Positions 26,121-31,107 of a DNA stretch of 64,000 nt are shown piece after piece. The stretch covers positions 1 through 64,000 of the forward strand of contig NZ_JACNME010000009.1 of assembly GCF_014270065.1 (NCBI RefSeq), given 5' to 3'. Source of the stretch: Quadrisphaera sp. RL12-1S (GTDB lineage: Bacteria; Actinomycetota; Actinomycetes; Actinomycetales; Quadrisphaeraceae). The notes under the pieces were generated by a model. That model was not told the origin of the DNA and did no database searches. It saw only the letters and a program-made list of their open reading frames with translations. A program made the translations under genes and the position numbers. Each line of letters begins with the position of its first letter. Position 1 is the first letter of the stretch.

Positions 26121-26429
26121 CTACTCCCGGGCGGGCCTGGCGGCCGCCACGAACGGCGCCAGGGCGGCCCGCAGCTGCTCCCGGTGCTCTCGCGACAGGT
26201 CGACCTCGTACCGCTGCCCCCGCAGGGAGAAGGCGACGGTCGCCACGTCGTCGGTGGAGCCGTCGATGCTGTCCGCGAAGGAGAGCTCGCCCTGGGGCCC
26301 CGCCAGCACCGGCCGGGGCGCCACCGCCTCCACCCGCGCCACCGCACCGGTGTGGCAGGCGCACGCGCACGCGGCGAACCGGCACCCTCCGTGATCGCTG
26401 GAGAAGCACCAGCTGGACCTGCCGCTCAC
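26121..26429 (-). CDS. Small protein with Lsr2-type dimerisation domain and Cys-rich N-terminus
   Basis: A 102-residue protein. Residues ~50-95 (FADSIDGSTDDVATVAF, then LRGQRYEVDLSREHREQL) match the N-terminal dimerisation domain of the nucleoid protein Lsr2, including the acidic start and the YEVDLS strand. The Lsr2 DNA-binding C-terminal domain (Arg-Gly-Arg hook) is absent. The first ~30 residues carry Cys8, Cys16, Cys21, Cys23, Cys25 with His13 and His26, a possible metal site. Such a protein could pair with Lsr2 and blunt its DNA bridging, or bind metal; both are inference. The start is GTG with weak GGAG upstream. Confidence 0.7.
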   Translation of the reverse strand: MSGRSSWCFSSDHGGCRFAACACACHTGAVARVEAVAPRPVLAGPQGELSFADSIDGSTDDVATVAFSLRGQRYEVDLSREHREQLRAALAPFVAAARPARE

Positions 26430-26479
26430 CCGCTCCGCACGCTCCTCACGCTTCTCACGTCCGCACCTACCCTGGTCGG

Positions 26480-26743: not shown

Positions 26744-28036
26744 TCAGCCCGTGGCCGAGGCCGACGGCGCGGGCGTCGGCGACCCGGTCGGCGCCGACGG
26801 GCTGACCGCGGGGGACGGCTCCGCCGAGCGCGACGCCGTCGCGGACGCCGTCGCCGACGGGGTGCCCGTCGGGGACGCGGTGACCGAGGGCGAGGCGCCG
26901 CCGTCGTCCCCGCCGTCGTCCCCGTCCTGGCCACCGGCGCCCTGCTGCGGCGCGGACGGGAGGGTGCCCGCGGCGCAGTCGCGGCCCAGCTGCGCCAGCT
27001 CGTCGGCACCGCGGGCGCCGCCGGTCTGGGCCGCGCCGGTGAGCAGCTGCGGCTTCCCGGACCTGATGGTGGCCGGGTGCCACTGGCTGCCCTGCACGCC
27101 GTCCCGGCCCACCTGCACGGTCAGCACGCCGGTCTGGGTGCCCAGGGTGTTGCCGGGCTGGGCGTAGAAGTGGAAGTTGCCGAGCCCGTACGCCACGAAC
27201 GCCGAGCCGACCTGCGCCGTGGGCTGCAGCACGTGGGCGTGGCTGCCCACCACCACCGCCGCGCCCGCCTCGGCGAGGTCGGCGGCCAGGGACCGCTGCC
27301 GCGCGGTGGGGCACTGCACCCGCTCGGTCCCCCAGTGGAGGACGACGACGACCACGCGTCCCGCCTGCGCCTCGCTCCTGACGTCCCGGAGGAGCCGGTC
27401 GCTGTCCTTGGTGGAGGCCAGGCCGGGTCTGGTCGACGTCGCCGTCCAGGCGGTCTGCAGCGAGGAGTCGAGCACGTCGGTGGCGGCGATGACGGAGACG
27501 GGCACGCCCTGCGGCTCCAGGCGCAGCGGCCGGAACGCCTCGTCGACGTCGTCGCCGGCGCCCAGCACCGGCAGGCCGGCGGCGCGACCGGCCTCGAGGG
27601 TGTCCTGCAGGCCGGTGGTGCCGTAGTCCATGCCGTGGTTGTTGGCCACGCTGACGGCGTCCACCCCGGCGGCCTCCAGCGCGGCCACCGCCCGCGGCGG
27701 GGCCCGGAAGGTGAACTGCTTGTCCGCCCGCGTCCCGCCCCGGGTGACGGCGGTCTCGAGGTTCACCACCGCCAGGTCCGCCTGCGCGAGCACGTCGAAG
27801 GCGCTGCCGAGGTCGGTGGTGGACGACGACGAGCCCTCGAAGTGCACGTCCCCGGCGAAGGCCAGCACCGCCGTCCCGGGGGTGTGCACCACGCCGTCCG
27901 CGCCCGTGGTCGCGGCGCCGGCCGACGTCGGCGCCGGGTCCGGGTCGGCCCCGGTCGGGCTGCACCCCGACACCGCGAGGACCCCGGCCAGGGCGCCGGC
28001 CAGGGCGAGCGCCACCGGGCGCGGTCGGCGGGTCAC
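26744..28036 (-). CDS. CapA-family lipoprotein (metallophosphatase fold)
   Basis: A 430-residue surface lipoprotein with signal peptide and lipobox VSGC (Cys25). The central domain is the CapA/PgsA metallophosphatase-like fold: LAFAGDVHFEG, DLAVVNLETAV, VSVANNHGMDYG, HWGTERVQCPT and VVVGSHAHVLQPT are all present, so the metal site looks intact. The last ~70 residues are a Ser/Pro/Thr/Ala tail, perhaps wall-spanning. CapA is known from poly-gamma-glutamate capsule export, but no capB/capC lies here, so the role is open. The start GTG overlaps the stop of the sacsin-like gene by four bases. Confidence 0.88.
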   Translation of the reverse strand: MTRRPRPVALALAGALAGVLAVSGCSPTGADPDPAPTSAGAATTGADGVVHTPGTAVLAFAGDVHFEGSSSSTTDLGSAFDVLAQADLAVVNLETAVTRGGTRADKQFTFRAPPRAVAALEAAGVDAVSVANNHGMDYGTTGLQDTLEAGRAAGLPVLGAGDDVDEAFRPLRLEPQGVPVSVIAATDVLDSSLQTAWTATSTRPGLASTKDSDRLLRDVRSEAQAGRVVVVVLHWGTERVQCPTARQRSLAADLAEAGAAVVVGSHAHVLQPTAQVGSAFVAYGLGNFHFYAQPGNTLGTQTGVLTVQVGRDGVQGSQWHPATIRSGKPQLLTGAAQTGGARGADELAQLGRDCAAGTLPSAPQQGAGGQDGDDGGDDGGASPSVTASPTGTPSATASATASRSAEPSPAVSPSAPTGSPTPAPSASATG

Positions 28037-31000
28037 GGCCGCGCCCCGGCGGCGTCCTCGAGCAGCGCGGCGGCCGCCCGGCCCGGCGCGGCGAGCAGCT
28101 CCGCCACCAGCGCCCGCGACTCCCACCGGCCCGCCGCGAGCGCGAGGCCCCGGGCCAGGCCGTCGGGGGTGGTGGCCCGGACGTCGGCGTCCTCGCCGCG
28201 CCCGGTGACCCACCACGCCACGGGGGCGCCGTCCACGGTGAGCGCGTCGTGCTCGGTCCAGCGGCGCGGGCAGCCGGGCAGCGCGGCGCGCACCCGCGGC
28301 GGCACGTCGGCCGTCGAGCTGCGCCCCACGGGGTCCACTCTGCCTGCTGCGAGCTCGCTGCACAGGGGGACGTCCAGCACGTCCGCCAGAGCGGGGACGA
28401 GCCCGGCGCCCGCCACCAGCCGGGCGCCCAGGTCGGTGCGCTGCGACCAGCAGGGGTCGTCCACCACCACCGCCCGCTCGGCGGGGACCGCGACGACGGC
28501 TCCACCGGCGTCCAGCGCGAGCACGTGCGTGGGCGGTGCCAGGGCGGTGACCAGGGCGGGGTCGTCCGCGGCGGCCCGGCCCAGGGCCCGCCACAGCGGC
28601 AGCAGGGCGGTGATGTCCAGCGGTGGCGCCTGCCCCCGCTCGGCGAGGTCGGCGAGGTCGGCGGCGCCGTCGAGGACGCGCTGCCAGCCCCGCGCGTCGA
28701 GGTCGGCGGCGTCCGCGACCAGGCCCAGGGCCCGTCCCAGCGCGGCGTCCGCGCCCCGCGCCCAGGCCGGTGCGGGCGGCAGCACGGCCGCGAGCCCGGG
28801 GGCGCAGCCGGGTCCCGCGCAGCCGGCCAGGCCCAGCTCGGAGCGCAGCCAGCCGGCGCTCGGCGGCGCGAGGTCGAGCGCGGTGCCGTCCGGGCGCACC
28901 ACCCGCACCGGGTCGAGCACGGCGGCGCGCAGCGCGGGGACGGTGGCCAGGTGGTCCAGGAGCGCCCCCTCGGCGCCCTCGCGCAGGAGGTCGAGGTCGC
29001 GCACCAGCACCACGTCGGTGGCGGTGGCGCCGTCGCCGGCGCGCGCCAGGACCTCCTCGAGCCACTCGTGGCCGCCGGCCGCGTCGAGCAGCGCTGTCGG
29101 CGGGTCGTGGGGGTCGACCTCGCCGAGCACCAGCAGGGCCAGCGAGCCCGCCACACCGGCCGCGGCGAGCACGGGGGCGCCCCAGCGCTCCAGGAGGTCC
29201 GGGTGGGCGGGGGCCACCTCGTCGGGGTCGAGCAGGTCGGCCGCGGGAGAGCCGGGCAGCACCAGGCCCGCGGCGGGCAGCACCTCCCCGGTGCTCGCGG
29301 GCAGCGGCAGCTCGGTGAGCGCGGGCAGGTCGCCGGGCGCCAGCCCCTGCTCGGCCACCGCGCGGGCGACCAGCGCCAGCAGGTGGTCCACCCGCTCGTC
29401 GTCGTCGGCGAGGTCCTCGACCAGCGCGGCCACCTCGGGGGCGGCCAGCAGCTCGCGGGCCCCCGCCGGCTGCGCGCCCAGCGCGGTGAGCAGCCGGACG
29501 GCGGCGGGCTCGGCGGCCACCACCGGGTGCGCGAGCCGCAGACCGGCGTCGGCGAGGTCGGCGAGCGCCGGGGTCTGCCCGCCGGTGGCCAGCAGCACGC
29601 CGCGGGGGGAGGCGGCGGTGCGCCCGTCCGCCAGCGGGACCCGCAGCACGGCCAGCTGCTCGCGGGCGGCCGGGTCGAGCGCGGCGGGTGCCAGCGCGGC
29701 GGCGGCCGCGCACCACGCGGCGGGCTCCGGGGGCAGCACCTCGGCCACCTCCGCCAGGCCCACCCGGCGCACCCCCAGCACCTCCAGGGCGGCGCGGGCG
29801 CGGCGCGGGGCCGCGACCAGGCCCGCGACCAGGGGCGCCAGCGCCGCCAGCGCCGTCGGGTCGTCGGCGAGCGGTCCGTCGTCCAGGGCCTGCGCCCGGT
29901 CGGGGCGCAGCGGTCCCCCCGCCTCGACCGGCAGCAGCACCGGCGCACCCGCCAGCGCGTCCACCGCCGCATGGCGCACCGCGGCGTCCACCCACCCCGC
30001 GGCCAGGCCCACGGGCACGGCCTCGAGCACGTCCTCCCCGGCGAGCGCCCGCTCCTGGAGCAGCGCGGCATAGGCCGCCCCGGCCTCGCGGAGCGCGCGG
30101 TGGGCGGCGGGACCGTCGGGCACGCGGCGCCGGCCGGCGTCGAGGGGCAGGTCGGCCACGAGCACGGCGGGCAGGTCCAGCGGCTCGTCGGTGGGGGTGG
30201 GCGCCAGCAGCACCCCGGGCAGCCGCACCTCCCGCTCGCCACCGCCGCGGGGCCGGGCCCACGCCACCGACCAGCCGGTGCGCTGGGCGCGCTCGCGCTC
30301 CTCCGCGCCCAGCCCGGCCAGCTCGCAGGCCTCGAAGGACCCGCGGCGCCCGACCCGGTGCCAGCGCAGGTCGACGTCGCGCAGCACGCGGGGCGCGCGT
30401 CCGGGCAGCTGCACCGCCACCTCGGCCAGCGCCGGCAGGGCGAGCAGGAGGAGGTCGTCCACGGCCTCCAGCGCCGCCTCGGCCGCCGCGACCGTCCCGC
30501 GGTCCCGCAGGACGACGACGGCGGCGGTGTCGCAGCCCTCCGCCTCCAGCAGCGCGCGCACGTCGCCGGGGGCGTCCACGGCGAACGGCAGCCGCAGCAC
30601 CGGCACGGGCCCGCCCGCGGGCAGGCCCGCGGCGGCGCGCGCGAGGTCGGCGCTGAAGCGGACCCCGTGGGTCCGCGAGGTCCACGTGACGTCGTCACCG
30701 AGCGCCAGCAGGGAGGCGGCGCCCACCCCGAACCGCCCGGTCAGCCCGGTCGGCCCGGCGCCGGCGCGCTTGGCGGAGGCCCGCAGCGCGGCCAGCGCGC
30801 GCACGCCGTCGGCGTCCAGCGGTGCGCCGGTGTTCAGCGCGAGCAGCCGGGGGCGCGCGTCGTCGTCCTCGAGGCGCAGGACGAGCCGCCCGGGCCGGCC
30901 GGCGCGCGCGGCGGCGTCGGCGGCGTTCTGGGCCAGCTCCACCACCGCGCGGTCGCGGTAGGAGCCGAGGACCAGGTCCTCCTCGGCGTTGGCGTCCTCG

Positions 31001-31107
31001 CGGAGCCGGTCCGGCCAGGCCGCCCACGCGTCGAGGACGGCGCGGCGCAGCGCCGCCGCGCCGAACGGGTCGGACCCGTCAGCGGGGAGGTCAGACGGGG
31101 TCGACAC
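28033..31107 (-). CDS. Sacsin-like ATPase (Hsp90-type GHKL domain)
   Basis: A 1024-residue protein. The N-terminal ~200 residues are a GHKL ATP-binding domain like that of sacsin: VVELAQNAADAA at 55-66 (Asn61 as metal-binding Asn), LNTGAPLDADG at 91-101, ASLRAS-type lid segment near 110 and GRFGVGAASLLAL at 124-136. The remaining ~800 residues are Ala/Leu/Val/Asp-rich without a domain I recognise. Sacsin-type domains are thought to act in chaperoning. The gene overlaps DUF3027 upstream by 17 bp and the CapA gene downstream by 4 bp. The association with DUF3027 recurs in actinobacteria; the function is unestablished. Confidence 0.82.
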   Translation of the reverse strand: MSTPSDLPADGSDPFGAAALRRAVLDAWAAWPDRLREDANAEEDLVLGSYRDRAVVELAQNAADAAARAGRPGRLVLRLEDDDARPRLLALNTGAPLDADGVRALAALRASAKRAGAGPTGLTGRFGVGAASLLALGDDVTWTSRTHGVRFSADLARAAAGLPAGGPVPVLRLPFAVDAPGDVRALLEAEGCDTAAVVVLRDRGTVAAAEAALEAVDDLLLLALPALAEVAVQLPGRAPRVLRDVDLRWHRVGRRGSFEACELAGLGAEERERAQRTGWSVAWARPRGGGEREVRLPGVLLAPTPTDEPLDLPAVLVADLPLDAGRRRVPDGPAAHRALREAGAAYAALLQERALAGEDVLEAVPVGLAAGWVDAAVRHAAVDALAGAPVLLPVEAGGPLRPDRAQALDDGPLADDPTALAALAPLVAGLVAAPRRARAALEVLGVRRVGLAEVAEVLPPEPAAWCAAAAALAPAALDPAAREQLAVLRVPLADGRTAASPRGVLLATGGQTPALADLADAGLRLAHPVVAAEPAAVRLLTALGAQPAGARELLAAPEVAALVEDLADDDERVDHLLALVARAVAEQGLAPGDLPALTELPLPASTGEVLPAAGLVLPGSPAADLLDPDEVAPAHPDLLERWGAPVLAAAGVAGSLALLVLGEVDPHDPPTALLDAAGGHEWLEEVLARAGDGATATDVVLVRDLDLLREGAEGALLDHLATVPALRAAVLDPVRVVRPDGTALDLAPPSAGWLRSELGLAGCAGPGCAPGLAAVLPPAPAWARGADAALGRALGLVADAADLDARGWQRVLDGAADLADLAERGQAPPLDITALLPLWRALGRAAADDPALVTALAPPTHVLALDAGGAVVAVPAERAVVVDDPCWSQRTDLGARLVAGAGLVPALADVLDVPLCSELAAGRVDPVGRSSTADVPPRVRAALPGCPRRWTEHDALTVDGAPVAWWVTGRGEDADVRATTPDGLARGLALAAGRWESRALVAELLAAPGRAAAALLEDAAGARP

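Follow-up and report, generated by a model that had tools for sequence, protein, structure and literature searches.

Across actinobacteria, acquired genes are kept silent by Lsr2, among them antibiotic clusters of Streptomyces. To counter Lsr2, either engineered antagonists such as truncated CgpS or competing regulators have been used so far. The Lsr2 dimers of M. tuberculosis join into chains via an N-terminal strand following the loss of three residues, with the Lys-4 and Asp-12 contacts of the free strand serving chain formation. When overexpressed, a truncated form of CgpS, a relative of Lsr2, acts in a dominant-negative manner, and the CGP3 prophage is induced (PMC7074111; PMC12239563). 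Among silencers acquired horizontally, a 2020 review names Lsr2 in its full-length form only (PMC7074111). A survey of phage Lsr2 proteins, in the text of which the words dimerisation and N-terminal are absent, makes no remark on dimerisation-only forms and raises H-NST as a possible parallel (PMC8612146).

Here, we characterize a small gene in a 64,000-nucleotide stretch of DNA from Quadrisphaera sp. RL12-1S (contig NZ_JACNME010000009.1, positions 1 to 64,000), hereafter the window. A preliminary description had proposed that its product is an Lsr2 dimerisation domain without a DNA-binding domain, preceded by a head rich in Cys and His (five and two, respectively, up to residue 26), and knew of no described system of this form. 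The last point needs correction, as databases contain dimerisation-only phage Lsr2 proteins, i.e. Efeko gp21 (68 aa), Nobel gp20 (69 aa) and Aaronocolus gp48 (72 aa), all of them headless, with an Arg/Lys-rich tail and annotated as Lsr2-like DNA bridging proteins. No description of a dimerisation-only Lsr2 as such was found in the literature, which was searched mostly outside subscription papers.

Results

The gene occupies positions 26121-26429 of the minus strand and encodes a 102-aa protein, MSGRSSWCFSSDHGGCRFAACACACHTGAVARVEAVAPRPVLAGPQGELSFADSIDGSTDDVATVAFSLRGQRYEVDLSREHREQLRAALAPFVAAARPARE, with a GTG start codon at 26429 and the stop codon at 26121-26123. It consists of a Cys/His head, a linker and an Lsr2 dimerisation domain. 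The GTG start is supported by the V/M-S-G-R/K-S beginning, which is conserved in three orthologues and a prophage relative. A likely ribosome-binding site, AGGAG, is located 12 nt before the GTG (26442-26446, minus strand), and the orthologues have AGGAG at 9-12 nt; a scan for a sigma-70-type promoter and a terminator gave none. Membership of a defence system was rejected, as a PADLOC search returned no match for the gene.

The Lsr2 dimerisation domain spans residues 46-102 (26124-26294, minus strand). In a Pfam search PF11774 matches residues 51-100 with an E-value of 2.8e-15, over the cut-off, and is the sole Pfam family matched, while the AT-hook-like C-terminal domain Lsr2_DNA-bd (PF23359) gave no match and the protein stops after residue 102. 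The head carries Cys 8, 16, 21, 23 and 25 together with His 13 and 26, all within the first 26 residues. Both parts of the proposed architecture are confirmed. The preliminary description had also suggested comparison with Lsr2 structures and a search for homologues retaining head and domain, and both bear it out. By sequence, the dimerisation domain of M. tuberculosis Lsr2 (PDB 4e1p/4e1r) matches residues 49-98, and 4e1p is the best Foldseek match of the AlphaFold2 model (probability 0.99, E 0.014, 43% identity), with poor overall superposition and with confident prediction only of the strand-strand-helix at residues 64-96 (pLDDT about 90; about 50 in the head). As for homologues, a comparison of the 13 family genomes shows the protein, complete with Cys-rich head and Lsr2 domain, in two other species of the genus (G009 and G012, the latter on contig JAKONK010000259.1 of a metagenome-assembled genome). 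In the PHROG search phrog_6509 matches with an E-value of 4.5e-14. The domain is acidic (calculated pI 5.0) and ends in ...AARPARE, without a basic tail. Two ordinary full-length Lsr2 genes are present elsewhere in the same genome and represent possible partners, to which the domain is approximately 40% identical.

The positions equivalent to the chain contacts of Lsr2 are Gln46, Ala52, Ser54 and Asp77 in the alignment to the 4e1p sequence, which is a comparison of residues only. At the Lys-4 position all three orthologues have Gln46, and at the Asp-12 position they have Ser, Gly and Ser54, the Asp being lost in each, with the equivalent of Asp-35 retained in the window protein as Asp77. In addition, approximately 45 residues precede the Lsr2 domain, and the N-terminus is extended in all three orthologues. 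Judged from the alignment, the window protein does not have a free N-terminal strand with the Lys-4 and Asp-12 contacts.

Between the three orthologues, SGRSSWCF, the residues D/H/G/C, the five Cys and the two His are invariant and the Lsr2 domain is well kept. The DNA-binding domain is absent from all three, and the linker (residues 27-45 in the window protein according to this alignment; 26295-26351, minus strand) varies in length from approximately 19 to 55 residues. Ratios of nonsynonymous to synonymous substitution were calculated by the Nei-Gojobori method, and the excess of silent changes was assessed with the Fisher test in two of the three species pairs. For the whole gene dN/dS is 0.30 between the window genome (G000) and G009, 0.375 for G009-G012 and 0.44 for G000-G012, with Fisher p-values of 2e-4 and 7e-5 in the two tested pairs. 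The head alone yields 0.21, 0.26 and 0.52 for the same pairs, respectively, based on small numbers, with p-values of 0.011 and 0.034 for the pairs with 0.21 and 0.26. Purifying selection thus acts on the codons of the head. That the head is untranslated or read out of frame was rejected on the evidence of this codon-level selection, the three orthologues and the prophage relative.

The gene has been gained singly at one site in two species. In G008 and G010, also of the genus, the divergent DUF2530 and marR genes adjoin directly with nothing between them, whereas G000 and G009 show these flanks in collinear order with the gene as an extra stretch of approximately 344 bp (26122-26465 in the window) between the two. 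The copy of G012 is found at another locus, between ordinary chromosomal genes, with marR on a different contig, and the gene neighbours differ between species. No integrase or repeats were detected at the gene ends and the G+C content equals that of the genome (76%), so the gene did not arrive recently. The marR regulator gene (PF01047; 25596-26078, minus strand) follows downstream; it is older than the insertion and possesses an upstream region of its own. Its end is overlapped by an MFS transporter gene (PF05977/PF07690; 24271-25599, minus strand), which is not part of the system, and the divergent neighbour encoding a small DUF2530 membrane protein (PF10745; 26480-26719, plus strand) provides context only. 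An operon partnership with marR and the MFS gene as the basis of function was rejected, because marR and DUF2530 adjoin without the gene in two species and the G012 locus is elsewhere. Separately, the DUF2530 match beside the G009 orthologue (G009:C18:41096-41329; L298) contains an in-frame TAG and may be broken or start later, and the window encodes a predicted 1024-aa protein at 28033-31107 (minus strand) without a Pfam match at E 0.001.

The head module itself, residues 7-26 (26352-26411, minus strand), reads W-C-x4-H-x2-C-x4-C-x-C-x-C-H. When the spacing of its Cys and His was turned into a DNA pattern and run against 297 genomes of the order, five matches resulted, four of which are fused to Lsr2, all in this one genus, compared to zero matches for a reversed control pattern; the head is more than a chance arrangement. 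Among 394 genomes of the class, the window genome was the sole convincing match to a Trp-anchored pattern, three others appearing to be chance. The head matches no Pfam, NCBIfam or PHROG family, on which ground a known zinc domain was rejected, and the motif string returned nothing from the literature. Zinc binding by the head is suggested by five Cys and two His at fixed spacing in a cytoplasmic protein, and redox control via the head is possible.

Viral relatives of the head are abundant. With all its Cys/His spacings and identities, and with the preceding Trp, it matches an unnamed module of approximately 20 residues, GWC-x4-H-x2-C-x4/8-C-x-C-x-C-H, that recurs very often among viral contigs (e.g. 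L063, L106, L147 and L172). Two module patterns were used on the viral contigs, one of which demanded the Trp, and at least 201 distinct motifs were present in the viral loci sampled, making the module far commoner than Lsr2. Among the module matches listed, about 110 are short free-standing ORFs, 50 are C-terminal tags and 32 are N-terminal heads, in rough proportions. Several candidate relatives were discarded: EGF and knottin Pfam matches of the free viral peptides are far below the cut-off and were taken as Cys composition, Koji gp43, with a weak match to the head, proved to be an unrelated protein of 270 aa, and the full-length Lsr2 proteins of phages Success and Syleon, which seemed to cover the head, have reading frames without it. 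A plasmid search produced only ordinary Lsr2 proteins among its named matches.

A full-length relative is located in a prophage of the sister species G010, which encodes a 154-aa protein, MSGKSGWCIEESHRSCRYFPCTCPCHKEHPVMARRIVLTDD..., with the head and both Lsr2 domains (PF11774 and PF23359). A tyrosine-integrase gene (PF00589) at the prophage edge ends 3 nt before the ATG of this protein, which lies beside phage tail-type genes. The start, the spacing and several non-Cys residues (SG-K/R-S-x-WC, CR-F/Y) agree between the prophage head and that of the window protein, and the two heads are therefore taken as homologous. The head joined to Lsr2 thus exists in a phage form with and a chromosomal form without the DNA-binding domain. 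Three more headed full-length Lsr2 proteins, GWCMTGHHGxCPV...CGCxCH, were detected with the looser Trp-anchored pattern on viral contigs L282, L189 and L182. Their start codons overlap the stop codon of a gene for a DUF2637 protein with an Lsr2 DNA-binding domain at its own end, and translation might in addition begin at an internal MAQ, yielding headless Lsr2 from these genes. The head is a portable module, not special to the window protein, that is also present on full-length phage Lsr2 with a DNA-binding domain, and for this reason the head alone cannot mark an antagonist. We also note a reverse split of the window protein in L172, L186 and L243, where a 40-aa head peptide is placed directly upstream of an 80-aa protein comprising only the Lsr2 DNA-binding domain.

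Discussion

Based on the domain content, the orthologues and the phage relatives, we propose, with a probability of about one half, that the window protein is a phage-derived, domesticated partner of Lsr2 that pairs with it, cannot hold DNA and so relaxes silencing. The direction of change that we infer as most likely, from the sequences, is that a phage-type headed Lsr2 lost its C-terminal domain after capture and was then kept by the host. The protein would pair with the two full-length Lsr2 proteins encoded in the genome, each heterodimer possessing one DNA-binding domain instead of two and hence being unable to bridge DNA. It would also cap Lsr2 chains, since its N-terminal strand, the part that links dimers, is changed and lies buried under the extension of about 45 residues. 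Overexpressed truncated CgpS reportedly acts in this way, through DNA-binding-deficient heterodimers and chain capping. Capping and non-bridging heterodimers together would relax the silencing of AT-rich foreign genes. The head, most likely by binding one zinc ion, may set the timing of this relief or recruit a further partner. By analogy with the truncated silencers, antagonism of Lsr2 is plausible and represents the best available reading.

The strongest alternative, possible if unlikely, is that the protein serves as an adapter rather than an antagonist, in which the head, a zinc module for binding DNA, RNA or another protein, does the work and is tethered to host Lsr2 filaments by the Lsr2 domain. 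This module also occurs fused to full-length phage Lsr2, adjoins the gene for a DNA-binding-domain-only Lsr2 in three viral loci (L172, L186 and L243), and tags many unrelated viral proteins, as a recruiting module would. However, the module has no known family or binding function, and the basic residues of the head are too few to suggest nucleic-acid binding. A more specific form of the proposed Lsr2 antagonism, in which a metal- or redox-sensitive head gates the pairing, such that zinc or oxidants lift silencing, and which would make the host-domesticated protein the first natural chromosomal anti-Lsr2 made from Lsr2, appears rather doubtful.

Less probable again is a homodimer that has ceased to interact with host Lsr2 and serves as a sensor or metal buffer. 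With only approximately 40% identity to the host proteins the domain might dimerise solely with itself, and its acidic, divergent character and the conserved Cys/His head are in agreement with such a role, but the sequence of the dimer-interface domain agrees well with that of Lsr2 (43% identity to 4e1p) and metal-related neighbours are absent. That the gene is a functionless, decaying remnant of a prophage lsr2 gene, as the absent C-terminal domain, the presence in three species only and the single-gene insertion might imply, is very improbable given the recurrence of this truncated version at two sites across three species, the invariance of all Cys and His, the frame kept through changes of linker length and the purifying selection.

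If the proposed pairing with Lsr2 is true, a natural dimerisation-only partner could be used directly to activate silent gene clusters, and would show phage-borne silencers turning into host regulators. The head furthermore draws attention to an unnamed Cys/His module, very common in viruses, the function of which is seemingly undescribed.

Comparison with known systems

H-NST resembles the window protein as a short silencer form consisting of the dimerisation part only, carried on acquired DNA. Its antagonism by heterodimer formation has been shown, whereas for the window protein we infer it, and H-NS and Lsr2 have unrelated folds, the window protein being without H-NS homology. The phage proteins of PHROG 6509, of 65-70 aa, share the Lsr2 dimerisation domain and the lack of a DNA-binding domain, but are headless, phage-borne and equipped with an Arg/Lys-rich tail, in contrast to the headed, chromosomal window protein without such a tail. 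Members of this type on viral contigs L169 (1492-1698), L287 (1001-1210) and L286 (2477-2695) are annotated as Lsr2-like DNA bridging proteins, and have an Arg-rich tail and no DNA-binding domain; for dimerisation-only phage proteins the annotation may be misleading. The headed full-length phage Lsr2 proteins, of the G010 prophage and of L282, L189 and L182, have the same head joined to an Lsr2 domain, which in the prophage reads M-S-G-K-S-G-W-C...C-x-C-x-C-H. With Lsr2 of M. tuberculosis and Streptomyces, and with CgpS, the window protein shares the homologous N-terminal dimerisation domain (PF11774; 4e1p), and differs from them by lacking PF23359, by the additional N-terminal head and linker and by the changed chain-linking residues. 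In domain content, it is a natural equivalent of truncated CgpS.
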